Part shown: piece after piece, positions 21,972 to 34,495 of the stretch
How positions within the stretch are numbered: position 1 is the stretch's first letter
How the letters are laid out: each line of letters begins with the position of its first letter
IMG/VR virus record: IMGVR_UViG_3300030106_001686
Coordinates: 1 to 34,495 of that record
Strand: one strand, 5' to 3'
DNA length: 34,495 nucleotides
From: a virus
Made by a program: the position numbers and the translations under genes
Notes under the pieces: generated by a model
The model's input: the letters and a program-made list of their open reading frames with translations, nothing else
What the model was told of the DNA's origin: nothing
Databases searched by the model: none

Positions 21972-22652
21972 TTGTCATATTTGATTTCAAATATACCTCA
22001 GTTTAAATGCTGGGTAAGAAAAGAGTTTACAGCCAACCACAGCAATTATCATGGAGAGTATCTACATGCTCTTGCTATTGCTGTTAATACTATTCCAGAT
22101 AGATCACTAAGTTTTCAAGTAGTTTTTACTGGGTGTGAAATAGACGATGAAGAAGACGCACCAAATATTCACGGTGGTGCTATGTGGGCAAGAATGCCTA
22201 TTCAAGCTTTAGTTGCAGACATACCATTACAAGATTGGCCAACTCCTATGGAAGATCATTTAGCACAGCCTTGGGATTGTCTTAGTCATCATCATTCTGT
22301 TGTTACCATGGATAGAGTTAGTTCATCACCTTGGCTTTGTAAGATAGGTGGAGACTTCTATACAGGCAAATATTTGTTCACGGTAGATTACACAGAAAAT
22401 TCAATAGCTGATGATTCTGCTCAACATAAGCAATCACATGTGTTATATTTAACAGACGCTGGTGAATATACTGGTAATTTTGTAGCTTTACCTAATAATA
22501 GAGTTAGGGCTACAAACCCTGCTTTATGGCGTGTTGGAGAAGGAGCACCAGACTTTATGCCTTCACAATGGATACATTCAGCAGAACAACATGAGAGTTA
22601 TATGGATCCGAACATAACATTCAACAATCTATATGCTCCAGAGGAAGACTAA
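21972..22652 (+). CDS. conserved phage protein, 226 aa (TTG start)
   Basis: TTG 21972 follows GGAGAGAG at 21960-21967, and no ATG is in frame nearby. The sequence has H-G-E-Y-L-H-A-L-A-I-A-V, then I-H-G-G-A-M-W-A-R-M-P-I and A-Q-P-W-D-C, a pattern I recall from cyanophage and other marine phage proteins without assigned function. It is rich in Trp, His and Asp. The place ahead of the adaptor genes suggests a virion protein, or an enzyme on virion material, but neither is shown. Confidence 0.62.
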   Translation: MSYLISNIPQFKCWVRKEFTANHSNYHGEYLHALAIAVNTIPDRSLSFQVVFTGCEIDDEEDAPNIHGGAMWARMPIQALVADIPLQDWPTPMEDHLAQPWDCLSHHHSVVTMDRVSSSPWLCKIGGDFYTGKYLFTVDYTENSIADDSAQHKQSHVLYLTDAGEYTGNFVALPNNRVRATNPALWRVGEGAPDFMPSQWIHSAEQHESYMDPNITFNNLYAPEED

Positions 22653-29491: not shown

Positions 29492-29871
29492 TGGCTAAGT
29501 CACCTGATGCGTTTGTTTACAACGCTACATTAGAACGGATTGTAGATGGAGACACATTTGATTGTTGTCTTGATCTTGGTTTTGATGTGAAGTTACATAA
29601 ACAGCGTGTCAGACTTGCAGGTATTGATACACCTGAAAGTAGAACTAGAGATTTAGCAGAAAAAAAATTAGGACTTGCTGCAAAAGAAAGGTTAAAAGAG
29701 CTTTGTATTGGTAATTTTAAGGTGAAATCATTAGGTAAAGGTAAATATGGTCGTATTTTAGGCATACCTTATACAGAAGACGGTAGAGATATATGCCAAG
29801 TGCTTATTAAAGAAGGTCATGCTGTAGAATATGACGGAGGCAAAAAGAAAAAAGTTTGGGGTGACTACTGA
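29491..29871 (+). CDS. staphylococcal-nuclease-like (thermonuclease) protein
   Basis: Cleaves DNA or RNA in a calcium-dependent way in the family. All key residues are present in family spacing: Asp21 (V-D-G-D-T), Arg41 (V-R-L-A-G), Asp46, Thr47 and Glu49 (I-D-T-P-E), and Arg88 (Y-G-R-I-L). The 126-residue product has no signal peptide, so the protein acts in the infected cell or in the virion. Host DNA degradation or nucleotide recycling is likely. It is tightly coupled on both sides. Confidence 0.88.
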   Translation: MAKSPDAFVYNATLERIVDGDTFDCCLDLGFDVKLHKQRVRLAGIDTPESRTRDLAEKKLGLAAKERLKELCIGNFKVKSLGKGKYGRILGIPYTEDGRDICQVLIKEGHAVEYDGGKKKKVWGDY

Positions 29872-30221
29872 TGGAGTCAGCCGTAACTTTGATTCAAGAG
29901 GTTGGATTTCCTATTGCAGCGGCATTAGGTCTTGGTTGGTTTATTTATAAATTAATTATGCGAATTGTCGATGGTATGGAAACTAAACTTGATACCGTTG
30001 ATGAAAAAGTAGAAAGCCAAATAGCTGCAATAGAAGAGAGACTTGGTACAAAACTTGATTCACAACACGGTATTTTGGTAGCATTGATAGATAGAGTGCG
30101 TAGTTTAGACAACGAAATAATACGCCAAGACACTTTAATAAAAACCATATTGGGTGTACCTAACTTAATTGATAGCGGAAAAATAGCAAAGGCAGGAAGA
30201 GATGATCAAAGAAAAGACTAA
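29871..30221 (+). CDS. membrane protein with coiled coil, holin-like, 116 aa
   Basis: One N-terminal helix (V-G-F-P-I-A-A-A-L-G-L-G-W-F-I-Y-K-L, about residues 11-28), then a long charged coiled coil (about 33-95) and a basic tail. This N-out, single-span plus coil design recurs in small phage holin-like or bacteriocin-like proteins of the BhlA/UviB kind. It directly precedes the csgF gene, overlapping by 20 bases. A role in holding the CsgG complex in place of a holin cannot be excluded. Confidence 0.6.
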   Translation: MESAVTLIQEVGFPIAAALGLGWFIYKLIMRIVDGMETKLDTVDEKVESQIAAIEERLGTKLDSQHGILVALIDRVRSLDNEIIRQDTLIKTILGVPNLIDSGKIAKAGRDDQRKD

Positions 30222-30714
30222 ACAAGAACAAATGGAAGAAGAAATTGTAAAAACTAAAATAGCTATATGGGCATTTTTTATAGGTGCTATTATGTTTTCA
30301 ACGATTCTAGGCATGAATTTAGCTGCTGATACCATAACTCATAAATTTAAATCTCCAAGTTTTAACGGCGTTGGAACGTCTAGTCATTATCTTACAATAG
30401 AAAATCAACAATATACTCGTAAGCTTACGATCAAAGAAGAGATAAAAGCATTACAAGATGAAATCAAGAGAGAAAAAGAAAACTCTACTCTTGCAAGATT
30501 TATGCGTAATCTTGAGTCTAGGGTTTACGCAGAATTATCAAGACAGTTAGTAAATAACTTATTCGGAGAAACACCGCAAAGCGAAGGTGTCATCACTTTA
30601 GAGGGAAATACTATTGAGTACACAAGTGATGGTGTAACTTTAACCCTTAAAATTACAGAGGCGGATGGGACAATTACCGAAATCGTCATACCTATTGGTA
30701 CTTTTACTTTCTAG
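30202..30714 (+). CDS. csgF: CsgF homologue, curli secretion pore partner
   Basis: In enteric bacteria CsgF inserts its N-terminal peptide into the CsgG barrel, makes a second narrow point and holds the curli nucleator at the surface. Here a signal peptide with a long charged N-region (residues 1-42) leads to D-T-I-T-H-K-F-K-S-P-S-F-N-G (43-56), which lines up with the E. coli mature start G-T-M-T-F-Q-F-R-N-P-N-F-G-G. The C-terminal part (about 118-170: L-V-N-N-L-F-G-E-T then T-L-T-L-K-I-T-E-A-D-G) also matches. The length is 170 versus about 138 residues in E. coli. The middle, about residues 73-105, is a helical insertion. The final 50 bases overlap csgG. Confidence 0.85.
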   Translation: MIKEKTKQEQMEEEIVKTKIAIWAFFIGAIMFSTILGMNLAADTITHKFKSPSFNGVGTSSHYLTIENQQYTRKLTIKEEIKALQDEIKREKENSTLARFMRNLESRVYAELSRQLVNNLFGETPQSEGVITLEGNTIEYTSDGVTLTLKITEADGTITEIVIPIGTFTF

Positions 30715-31570
30715 TTGTTCTATATTTGATCAGATAGAAGATACTTACGAACATAGGTTTCCACTACACAATGTTGTAAATATACAAGATTTACAATCTA
30801 AGGAACTAAAATATGTTCCTATACCTCAAGTTAGTCCTGTTGTAGCAGTGTATCCTACTGCTTTCACAGATCAGACAGGACAAAGAAAAAGCAATAGTGA
30901 GTTTGCTTTGTTTAGCACAGCTATAACACAACAACCAAATGCGTTACTTATAAGAGCTTTAAAGCATGCAGGAGACGGTAAGTTTTTTAGGGTTGTAGAA
31001 AGAGTGGGATTAGACAATCTTACCAAAGAAAGACAGCTTATAAGATCAGCAAGAGAACAATCAACCAATGAAGAAGAAAAAAAGAAAGCACTAAGACCTT
31101 TATTGTTTGCTGGTATTTTGATTGAGGGAGCTGTCATATCTTACGAAGTAAATTTAGAAAGTGGTGGAGCAGGTGCTAGGTATTTAGGCATAGGCAAAAG
31201 CGTTATGTATAGAGAGGACAACATAACGATAAGCATGCGTATGGTATCTGTTGCAACAGGGGAAGTATTGTTAGAGGTATTAAGTCAAAAAACAATATTT
31301 AGTTATGGCAAATCTGAGGACGTATTTAGGTTTGTTGAAGCTGAAAGCGAGCTAGTAGAAATAGAACTAGGCAACGCAAGAAATGAGTCATCAACCATAG
31401 CTTTGATGAAAGCTATAGAAGGAGGTGTGCTAGAAATCATTAACACTGGTTATGATCGTGGTTTCTGGGTTTTACAAAATGATAACCAAGGAGTAGAATT
31501 AAATAATGAAGAAATTAAAATTGATAAGCCTGATTGTGATGCTGACTGCGTTGACGACATACGCGGCTGA
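30665..31570 (+). CDS. csgG: CsgG homologue, outer-membrane curli secretion lipoprotein
   Basis: Forms the nonameric, 36-strand outer-membrane pore that exports curli subunits. A lipoprotein signal peptide ends in L-S-S-C with Cys18. Clear CsgG motifs follow: D-Q-T-G-Q at 69-73; F-S-T-A at 83-86; G-L-D-N-L-T-K-E-R near 115-123; the transmembrane hairpin S-G-G-A-G-A-R-Y-L-G-I-G at 166-177; T-G-E-V-L near 198; D-R-G-F-W at 264-268. At 301 residues it is some 20 longer than E. coli CsgG, largely from a C-terminal extension with two cysteines (D-C-D-A-D-C). The pore-lining loop differs: F is kept before STA, but E. coli Asn55 and Tyr51 are not at the same places. Confidence 0.93.
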   Translation: MGQLPKSSYLLVLLLSSCSIFDQIEDTYEHRFPLHNVVNIQDLQSKELKYVPIPQVSPVVAVYPTAFTDQTGQRKSNSEFALFSTAITQQPNALLIRALKHAGDGKFFRVVERVGLDNLTKERQLIRSAREQSTNEEEKKKALRPLLFAGILIEGAVISYEVNLESGGAGARYLGIGKSVMYREDNITISMRMVSVATGEVLLEVLSQKTIFSYGKSEDVFRFVEAESELVEIELGNARNESSTIALMKAIEGGVLEIINTGYDRGFWVLQNDNQGVELNNEEIKIDKPDCDADCVDDIRG

Positions 31571-32237
31571 TAACGAAATATATGTAGATCAATCTGGTAC
31601 TGGAGCCAATATAGACCTAGAACAACTAGGTATTTCTAATATCATAGGTGGGTTAAATAGCTCTGCAGGTAATTTAACCCCCTTTGATTTAGATGGTAAC
31701 AGTATGACACTTGACATAAATATGATAGGTGCAACTAACAAGTTTCTTGGTGATATATTTGCTGATAACTTTACTGGCTTTTACGAGTTTGACGGTGGTA
31801 CTAATACCTTTACCATACAAGTTGATCCCACAGATACCTATGGTGCTGACGGATCTAATCAATATGTAGATGTCACAGGTAGTGGTAATACTTTTACTTT
31901 AAACCAAGGAACTACAGCATTAGCAGCTTCGCTTGATTTAGATTGGATTATAAACGGATCTAATAACACAGTTACATCAAATATTAATATAGACGGTGCT
32001 ACTAATTATATGGATATAGATGGTTCTGATAATACAGTTACTTATACAGGTACAGGAGTTACAGCTTCAGCAGGTGGATATTTCTATCTTGATCACACAG
32101 GTGGCTCGAGAACTTTTAATATTTCACAACTAAGCACCCAAGATAATGACTGGCTTAAAATTATATCCGTTTCTGGCACTGCTGCTTCTACCGTTTGTGT
32201 TGTTCAAAACGACCAAGGTACAAGCACAAGCTGTTGA
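31506..32237 (+). CDS. secreted curlin-like protein, putative curli subunit
   Basis: A Sec signal peptide (1-20 or so, ending T-T-Y-A) leads to E-I-Y-V-D-Q-S-G-T-G-A-N (24-35) and I-D-L-E-Q-L-G-I-S-N (36-45), which fits the curlin pattern of Q-x-G-x-x-N repeats. The remaining 190 residues have further strand-turn units (G-S-N-N-T-V-T, G-S-D-N-T-V-T, G-S-G-N-T-F-T) but fewer Q-x-G steps, so a divergent beta-solenoid is likely. Two cysteines near the end (231 and 243) are not seen in CsgA. The 5' end overlaps csgG by 65 bases. Secretion by CsgG is inference from the operon. Confidence 0.68.
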   Translation: MKKLKLISLIVMLTALTTYAADNEIYVDQSGTGANIDLEQLGISNIIGGLNSSAGNLTPFDLDGNSMTLDINMIGATNKFLGDIFADNFTGFYEFDGGTNTFTIQVDPTDTYGADGSNQYVDVTGSGNTFTLNQGTTALAASLDLDWIINGSNNTVTSNINIDGATNYMDIDGSDNTVTYTGTGVTASAGGYFYLDHTGGSRTFNISQLSTQDNDWLKIISVSGTAASTVCVVQNDQGTSTSC

Positions 32238-33264
32238 TATTGGAGATATATCTGAATTAAACGGTACGGCTCAAATTGTCAGAGACAAGCCTTATGATGC
32301 AGATTTAAAGTTTGCTATTCAAAGTAATGATGAGGCCATAACCAAAGATGGCCGTATGGCTATTACTTTTCTTGATGATTCTACTGTAAAACTTACAGAA
32401 CATAGTCAGCTACTTATTGACGAGTACATATATGATCCAGACCCAAGTAAAGCAAAGATGGCTCTTACCTTTGGACTTGGTACAGCTAGGTTTATTACAG
32501 GCAATCTAAACCGTATAGATAAACAAAACATAACTCTTAAAACACCTACAGCTAACATAGCAATACGTGGGACTGATTTTACGGCTACAGTTGATGAACT
32601 AGGGCGTAGCCTTATAATTTTGCTACCAGACGCTCTAGGGCTCTCTAGTGGCGAAATAGAGGTAGTTACTGCTATGGGCACCGTTATACTAAACAAACCC
32701 TACGAAGCCACTACAGTGAGCGTATTTGAGTCTGCTCCAACCAAACCTGTAATTTTAGACTTAACACTTGATGTAATAGATAACATGCTTATTGTTACAC
32801 CACCCAAAGAAGAAGTGTTAGTAGAAGAAGAAACCACTACTACGCAAGCAGATAGTGTATTAGATTTTAATGATCTTGATATAGATTATCTTGCAGAAGA
32901 TTATTTAAAAGAAGATAGTCTTGAGTTTACAGAATTAGATATAAACTATCTTGATGTAAATTATCTTGAAGACTTGCTTAATGTATTAGATGCCTTGGCG
33001 ATAGACGAAGATGAAGATGTGTTAGCACAAGCAACAAGCACACAGATAGCAGGTACTCTGTTAGGCAAAGATCCAGACACACAGATAACAGCTTTAATTA
33101 CAGGAAATGTAGTAAGTTTGCGAAGAGAGGTTAATGAAAGTGTTAGAGTTGATCTAAACGGTAGTAATGCCTATACAGTTATTTTGATTCAAGATGGTGT
33201 ATCTAATATAATAAAAATCAACGGAGGGAGCGACAGTGTTATCACTATCACTCAAAGTGATTAA
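32146..33264 (+). CDS. secreted FecR-domain protein with curlin-like C-terminus
   Basis: A signal peptide (1-29, ending V-Q-A-Q-A) is followed by a FecR-like domain (about 30-200) with F-L-D-D-S-T-V-K-L, I-D-E-Y-I-Y-D and the family hallmark I-R-G-T-D-F at 140-145. No transmembrane segment follows, unlike iron-signal FecR. An acidic linker (about 222-295) carries L-D-I-x-Y-L repeats, then residues 340-372 show V-I-L-I-Q-D-G-V-S-N and V-I-T-I-T-Q-S-D, like a curlin repeat. The start overlaps the curlin-like gene by 92 bases, and its ribosome site is weak, so translation is probably coupled. A role in anchoring or nucleating the surface polymer is inferred. Confidence 0.78.
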   Translation: MTGLKLYPFLALLLLPFVLFKTTKVQAQAVDIGDISELNGTAQIVRDKPYDADLKFAIQSNDEAITKDGRMAITFLDDSTVKLTEHSQLLIDEYIYDPDPSKAKMALTFGLGTARFITGNLNRIDKQNITLKTPTANIAIRGTDFTATVDELGRSLIILLPDALGLSSGEIEVVTAMGTVILNKPYEATTVSVFESAPTKPVILDLTLDVIDNMLIVTPPKEEVLVEEETTTTQADSVLDFNDLDIDYLAEDYLKEDSLEFTELDINYLDVNYLEDLLNVLDALAIDEDEDVLAQATSTQIAGTLLGKDPDTQITALITGNVVSLRREVNESVRVDLNGSNAYTVILIQDGVSNIIKINGGSDSVITITQSD

Positions 33265-34495
33265 ATGAAAAGACTATTATTACCAATACTTATAATACTA
33301 GCTTTACCATTATTGTTTCAAAGCACTCCTACAGAAATATTAAAACTAAAAACTTTTGATAAGTTTATAGAAACACCAGAGCCATCAGGTAACTTTGTCA
33401 TACTTAACATAACCGAAGAAGATGTAGAGCGTGAGGGAGGTTGGCCTTTACCCAGACAAAGACTTGCTGAAATACAATTAAACATAATAGGTAAAGGTGC
33501 CTTAGGTGTAGGTTGGGTTATAAGTTTTCCACAAGCAGATAGAATGGGTGGTGATGAAGATTTTGCTAGATCATTAGGATACGCTCCCTCTGTTATAGCC
33601 ATGTTTGAAGATGGTAAAGGCGATTATCCTACATCACCTGGAACTGTTGTACTTGGTATTGATAATGGTGGTATACTTTCTACAGGAGTAAAGTCAAACC
33701 TACCTCTACTATCCAATCATGTTCTACAAGGTTTGGCTATTGCTCCTACTGATATAGATTTATTAGTTCGTAAAATACCTCTTTTAGTTAAAACACCAAA
33801 TAACGAATGGATACCTAGTTTTGGTACACAAATATATAAATCTTTGTTTGATGTAAAAACTTATATTATAAAAACTAATGATAATGGTATAGAAGAAATA
33901 TCAATAAGAGGAATACCACCGATTAAAACAGATAGTCTTGGTCGTAAGTGGATTAGTTGGGTTAACACACCACAAACAGACTTACAAGAAATGAATGTCA
34001 ATGGTAAGTTTGTGTTTGTAGGCGTTACTGCTAACGGTGTTATGCCACAAGTAGCCACGCCTGTTGGACTTTTAGAGCCACATAAAATACAAACTGCACT
34101 TGCTGAATCTATACTAATAGAGAATTCACCATACATACCTGATTGGTCATTAGCAGCAGAGCTTTTAATTTTAATAATATTTGTTAGTTTGGTTTGGTTT
34201 GTATTGCATTACTTTGGCATTACATGGGGAGTATCTATCGCTACTGTATTCATGTTAGTTACAGGTTTGGGTGGTGTCTACATGATTAAACAAGGTTTGT
34301 TAGTAGATGTATCTTGGACTTTAGTATCTGAATTTATAACAGGATCAATAGCTTTTTACTTAAGATTCAGACAACAATACAAACTAAGACAGCAGATCAA
34401 GAAACAGTTTGAACATTACCTTGATCCACGCCAAGTAAAGAAACTACAAGACGATCCTAGTTCTCTAGTGTTAGGTGGTGAAAAAAGATATTGTA
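33265..34495 (+). CDS. CHASE2 receptor, probable class III adenylate cyclase (3' truncated by window)
   Basis: The first 410 residues are visible. An N-terminal helix (about 4-18) leads into a CHASE2 sensor domain, with its typical G-G-W-P-L-P-R-Q-R at residues 58-66. Three membrane helices follow (about 294-315, 318-341, 345-365), then a cytoplasmic linker Q-I-K-K-Q-F-E-H-Y-L-D-P-R and L-V-L-G-G-E-K-R-Y. This linker is what leads into class III cyclase catalytic domains. The catalytic part lies beyond the window, so cyclase function is inferred from the linker. The gene starts directly after the FecR stop, so sensor and secretion genes share an mRNA. Confidence 0.82.
   Translation, partial: MKRLLLPILIILALPLLFQSTPTEILKLKTFDKFIETPEPSGNFVILNITEEDVEREGGWPLPRQRLAEIQLNIIGKGALGVGWVISFPQADRMGGDEDFARSLGYAPSVIAMFEDGKGDYPTSPGTVVLGIDNGGILSTGVKSNLPLLSNHVLQGLAIAPTDIDLLVRKIPLLVKTPNNEWIPSFGTQIYKSLFDVKTYIIKTNDNGIEEISIRGIPPIKTDSLGRKWISWVNTPQTDLQEMNVNGKFVFVGVTANGVMPQVATPVGLLEPHKIQTALAESILIENSPYIPDWSLAAELLILIIFVSLVWFVLHYFGITWGVSIATVFMLVTGLGGVYMIKQGLLVDVSWTLVSEFITGSIAFYLRFRQQYKLRQQIKKQFEHYLDPRQVKKLQDDPSSLVLGGEKRYC

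Follow-up and report, generated by a model that had tools for sequence, protein, structure and literature searches.

What would a phage do with the genes of a curli-type secretion pore, and does a locus that joins them to a FecR-domain protein and a CHASE2 receptor belong to the phage at all? We addressed these questions in the virus record IMGVR_UViG_3300030106_001686 (56,596 b in full), of which positions 1–34,495 were analyzed as one stretch of 34,495 nucleotides, hereafter called the window. An initial annotation of this stretch had described an operon of csgF, csgG, a curlin-like gene, fecR, and a CHASE2 gene. The ORF listing confirmed all five reading frames in position and strand.

Gene content of the locus and its phage

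The record encodes recognizable terminase, portal, and major head proteins. The portal is closest to those of 023Pt_psg01, HTVC027P, and HTVC023P (~49% identity) and therefore identifies the phage as an HTVC023P-type pelagiphage or a close relative. The record size of 56.6 kb compares with a published mean of 58.8 kb for this type (PMC9599517). The G+C content is 36.7%, SAR11 is the presumed host, and no Rfam match was found in the window. Outside the locus, positions 622–2352 encode a 576-aa C5-cytosine DNA methylase, whose matches to its families fall in two separate pieces; the middle stretch has no Pfam match and may be inserted sequence or an atypical recognition domain. A protein from the virion-gene region (21972–22652) matches a PHROG annotated as ferredoxin and has no Pfam match.

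All module ORFs lie on one strand (+), and their ends overlap or touch. The Pfam matches of CsgF, CsgG, FecR, and CHASE2 each exceed the gathering cut-off, in agreement with the identities proposed initially. csgF (30202–30714) encodes a predicted pore partner or extracellular chaperone with a signal sequence (E 3.8e-14). The match covers positions 7–132 of the 132-position profile and a hydrophobic segment starts at residue 20; phmmer found no CsgF in the PDB. The adjacent csgG (30665–31570) encodes the putative outer-membrane curli secretion pore lipoprotein (E 6.8e-45), with a lipobox-like LLSSC and with residues 45–274 aligned to E. coli CsgG structures (E 1.9e-49). In this alignment, two constriction residues of the E. 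coli pore, Tyr51 and Asn55, appear changed, and Phe56 is kept. As noted initially, no csgE candidate is present among the module genes read. Homologues of CsgG and CsgF, which the initial annotation had described as known in some marine phages, are indeed present in pelagimyophages (PMC7029224).

The curlin-like gene (31506–32237) encodes a predicted secreted repeat protein, the presumed CsgA/B equivalent, which we placed via its syntenic homologues. The curlin-like identity proposed in the initial annotation is suggested by the aligned syntenic Melnitz homologue, which passes the Pfam cut-off (Curlin_rpt, E 8.6e-6), whereas the protein's own Curlin_rpt match is sub-threshold (E 0.64). It aligns over its full length to the syntenic HTVC008M and Melnitz proteins at 25–26% identity. 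Eight G-x-x-N motifs were observed against 2.9 expected, a number reached in 52 of 20,000 shuffles, and several of them are spaced by 22–28 residues. The predicted structure is beta-rich (pLDDT 74). A fold search with this model gave no PDB match at E ≤ 0.001, only weak beta-solenoids; a match to the CsgA fibril at rank 34 (E 7) was discarded as meaningless, and a PDB profile search of the family returned antibody-chain noise only. The protein is likely the substrate of the CsgG-CsgF pore. In podophages its C-terminal end is a conserved VCVVQNDQGTSTSC that includes two cysteines. The homologues of myophages instead have IDI(S/T/I)Q(T/S/R)D as their last residues, which resembles the ITITQSD at the end of FecR.

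The first gene of the module, up116 (29871–30221, +), precedes csgF and encodes a protein of 116 aa with one N-terminal transmembrane segment, then a coiled coil. This architecture is shared by up116-type proteins (84–118 aa). None of the 15 scanned has a HisKA/HATPase or other kinase domain, and no histidine is conserved in their alignment. Among 50,697 phage records, homologues were found only in HTVC008M and Melnitz, at two places each, upstream of csgF, and up116 lies 5' of csgF in 67 of 67 contigs. up116 belongs to the module; judged by sequence, it is a module-restricted inner-membrane coiled-coil protein. Matched by conserved position and not by sequence, it is probably the gene labelled 'HK' in PMC9599517. 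Because the upstream gene is the same conserved neighbour, this label is probably a mislabel of a short transmembrane/coiled-coil protein without a kinase domain, and it does not exclude the present locus from the published module. The five genes described initially are thus present and operon-like, but the unit also includes up116, and its last gene runs past the window.

This last gene (CHASE2-adenylyl cyclase, 5' part, 33265–34495, +; ORF 33265–34494, open at the window end) encodes a CHASE2 sensor with transmembrane segments and a linker (E 4.2e-25). The window stops inside it, and the next 10 positions of the record (34496–34505) are all N. The change of frame at this gap is an assembly feature; in relatives the gene reads unbroken. 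Past the gap, the gene extends to about 35021 of the record and encodes a class III cyclase (Guanylate_cyc match at 34503–35012, E 8.3e-19). The initial description as a cyclic-nucleotide sensor therefore had the direction wrong: the CHASE2 sensor would make the cyclic nucleotide. Further 3' in the full record follow a transmembrane/coiled-coil protein, a weakly GTA-holin-like protein (sub-threshold match), a phage lysozyme (E 2e-51), and more virion-type genes, so that phage genes for virion and lysis functions flank the module on both sides.

Conservation and phage origin of the module

Searching viral contigs with CsgG, we obtained 374 relatives and kept the closest 80; the counts therefore measure constancy within the lineage. 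In contigs with enough sequence, csgF precedes csgG in 71/71, csgG precedes the curlin-like gene in 67/67, and fecR precedes the cyclase by at most 1 kb in 62/62. This order exceeds chance. The whole series from up116 through the cyclase occurs together with the lysozyme in 43 viral contigs, and in podophages the lysozyme starts 2.3–2.9 kb after the cyclase start (39/39 contigs). Pelagimyophage HTVC008M and methylophage Melnitz show the same module order. Median dN/dS values are 0.058 for up116, 0.142 for csgF, 0.078 for csgG, 0.071 for the curlin-like gene, 0.077 for fecR, and 0.166 for the CHASE2 cyclase, comparable with the values for the nuclease (0.07) and lysozyme (0.193) genes on its flanks. 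Every module gene is under purifying selection.

Could the locus be host DNA misassembled onto a phage contig, or a bacterial operon captured unchanged? The module is found on some MAG contigs labelled Pelagibacter, Maricaulis, and Rhodobacteraceae, which speaks for this reading. However, phage genes lie on both flanks, the 43 viral contigs hold the module plus lysozyme, and the one MAG contig checked (L096) encodes terminase, portal, and endolysin. A CsgG-alignment scan of genome contigs yielded 13 loci, and in none of them did we find this gene order in a bacterial operon. Those MAG contigs that carry the module appear viral; contigs with cellular-type csgG or csgFG have no nearby FecR or cyclase. 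CsgF exceeds the cut-off in 4 of 289 alphaproteobacterial genomes, none with FecR or a cyclase nearby. We therefore rejected a host origin, which we consider extremely improbable, in line with the initial annotation, whose suggested gene-order search found this order in viral contigs, HTVC008M, and Melnitz and in none of the bacterial loci sampled. The module MAG contigs (L096, L086–L091) are binned as Pelagibacter, Maricaulis, Rhodobacteraceae, Flavobacteriaceae, and Neomarinimicrobiota, and such bins could falsely suggest that these bacteria encode curli.

The FecR/CHASE2 pair and the cyclase

The gene fecR (32146–33264, +) encodes an exported FecR-domain protein (E 2.6e-9). PF04773 at residues 66–151 is its sole domain, the N-terminus is signal-peptide-like, and no cytoplasmic anti-sigma domain was found by Pfam before the FecR domain. 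An export signal with a FecR domain alone therefore does not support the label 'iron regulator'. The C-terminal tail is conserved and contains a single curlin-like Q-x-G-x-x-N stretch. Aligned to curlin with hhalign, it scored 16.7 against a best of 14.9 in 40 shuffles (P 0.04), which is weak and a hint; as a curlin repeat the tail has no Pfam match. A nucleator-like function of FecR is weakly hinted at. The predicted model (pLDDT 48) was too poor for a fold search.

In 18 of 30 alphaproteobacterial CHASE2 loci, hand-picked from a longer list and many from its top, CHASE2 has a FecR-domain protein no more than about 4 kb away; ~0.1 would be expected from 76 FecR proteins in 58 alphaproteobacterial genomes (~163 Mb). 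In several of these loci FecR is divergent and not co-directional to CHASE2. FecR beside CHASE2 is a general alphaproteobacterial pair. Near cellular csgG or csgFG, no FecR or cyclase was found (L092–L095, L097, L098, L106, L107, L109). Since the pair is bacterial and the cellular csgFG loci sampled lack it, the phage module combines two bacterial units, which agrees with the published observation that FecR/AC partners are not within bacterial curli operons (PMC9599517). In a SAR11-family sample, locus L150 (G102:C1:321000–329000) encodes a FecR-domain protein close to a CHASE2 protein in which no cyclase motif was recognized.

Each of the 60 cyclase copies that could be read retains FxDxRGF, DK(F/Y)IGD, and D(F/Y)(S/T)xIGDxVNxAARLE, and these relatives have the two metal-binding Asp, the adenine-selecting Lys/Asp, and the transition-state Asn/Arg of class III adenylyl cyclases. 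In the present record all catalytic residues are seen except those just before DVRGF, which are lost to the 10-N gap. The cyclase of one relative (L085) matches Pseudomonas aeruginosa CyaB (E 1.2e-31). The product is most likely cAMP. No cNMP-binding domain was found in the phage record. Among 79 SAR11-family genomes, 4 encode a cNMP-binding domain, none a class I cyclase, and 2 a class III cyclase above the cut-off; both of the latter also carry phage-type CsgG, and one of the two cyclase contigs carries phage genes. The presumed host family thus has almost no cyclase or known cNMP receptor, and no cAMP receptor is apparent.

Possible functions and relation to known systems

The sequences establish a fixed order of pore, partner, curlin-repeat-like, FecR, CHASE2-cyclase, and coiled-coil genes in the late/lysis region. 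On balance, we consider it probable that they form a phage-encoded type VIII (curli-type) secretion module of HTVC023P-type pelagiphages, kept by selection, which combines export with an envelope-sensing cyclase. Late in infection, the curlin-like protein would pass through the CsgG-CsgF pore onto the infected cell's surface and may form beta-solenoid or amyloid material there. FecR in the envelope may partner the CHASE2 ectodomain, a pairing that is also probable for neighbouring FecR and CHASE2 proteins of bacteria, and cAMP synthesis would then be set by envelope or secretion status. The benefit, more speculatively, could be a surface coat that limits superinfection or holds host cells and virions together. 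Against this explanation count the absence of CsgE, the changed Tyr51 and Asn55 of CsgG, the curlin-like protein below the Pfam cut-off and its model without a significant PDB match, and the scarcity of cNMP-binding domains, with none in the phage and 4/79 in the presumed host family. Likewise, Melnitz-infected cells showed no clumping (PMC9004378).

The main rival is a function in lysis timing or release, with CsgG-CsgF as a gated outer-membrane pore that depolarizes or disrupts the envelope and the cyclase or coiled-coil proteins as a timer (after PMC9004378, where a lysis role was proposed). The constant distance to the lysozyme in all 39 podophage contigs fits this reading, as do the transmembrane/coil and weakly GTA-holin-like proteins between cyclase and lysozyme. 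However, neither FecR nor a curlin-like protein would be needed for such a pore, and the module of HTVC008M and Melnitz lies elsewhere, beside replication and baseplate genes. In addition, HTVC027P and 023Pt_psg01 carry unrelated cargo in the same region, e.g., a 2OG-Fe(II) oxygenase, so this region may be no more than a place for cargo. We regard the lysis reading as unlikely. Still less probable is uptake of large nutrients or iron compounds through the pore, with FecR as an iron regulator, as proposed in PMC7029224 and PMC9599517; a pore without CsgE could indeed stay open, but the exported FecR has no domain besides FecR, commonly neighbours CHASE2 proteins, and so does not indicate an iron role, and the conserved curlin-like gene would be unexplained.

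A more specific version, which we put forward as a long shot, is a closed device evolved by the phage. FecR, through its curlin-like tail, would report the state of pore or fibre to CHASE2, and cAMP would be made in a host without its own cyclase or CRP-type receptor; the receptor would be a phage protein, possibly up116.

If the secretion module works as we suggest, curli-type secretion encoded by phages that infect the most abundant bacteria of the ocean would alter the contact of the infected cell with its neighbours and with other phages. Testability is raised by two points: what was taken for a kinase is probably a membrane coiled-coil component dedicated to the module, and the product of the cyclase seems to be a messenger with almost no known receptor in the host family.

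The module is already published. Zaragoza-Solas 2020 described csgF/csgG and associated genes in pelagimyophages (PMC7029224), and Buchholz 2022 the Melnitz operon, in which curlin genes were thought to be missing (PMC9004378). Wittmers 2022 found the module complete in myophages and in nine HTVC023P-type podophages, arranged as HK, CsgF, CsgG, CsgA/B, FecR, sometimes a second CsgA/B, and AC, and gave evidence that it is expressed and widespread (PMC9599517). Novelty fails by the condition that the initial annotation had set itself, because this same order was already published as a phage module, with PMC7029224 and PMC9004378 as precursors. The uses it listed (amyloid coat, exclusion of other phages, joining cells, release) are in the literature as well.

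Among the FecR/CHASE2 neighbours of bacteria is the Burkholderia BiofilmReg operon (PMC5192318), which has no curli genes, a FecR protein with LysM, and a histidine kinase as its CHASE2 protein; there too, an exported FecR-domain protein lies beside a CHASE2 membrane sensor. E. coli curli (CsgA-G) share CsgG and CsgF homologues with the phage, and curlin-type repeats with the phage homologues, whereas no CsgE, CsgC, or CsgD was seen in the phage, the substrate is distantly curlin-like, and FecR and the CHASE2 cyclase are added. The HTVC008M and Melnitz operons (PMC7029224, PMC9004378) have the same order, i.e., up116 twice, csgF, csgG, curlin-like, FecR, and cyclase, at another genome position and with proteins ~25–47% identical to the present ones; unlike the present locus, they have a second curlin-repeat gene between FecR and cyclase. 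In HTVC008M this gene (L004:5139–6464) encodes curlin repeats and a PA14 domain, possibly an adhesin part. The HTVC023P-type module (PMC9599517) is of the same lineage, with the CsgF-CsgG-CsgA/B-FecR-AC order and no CsgE. The present copy differs in having no second curlin gene and in that the upstream gene, labelled 'HK' there, shows no kinase domain here; the text of PMC9599517 does not mention CHASE2. The present locus fits this module and is genuine, not new. Our additions to the published picture are the missing cAMP receptor, an up116 without a kinase domain, a FecR without an anti-sigma domain, and the recognition of FecR/CHASE2 as a bacterial pair.
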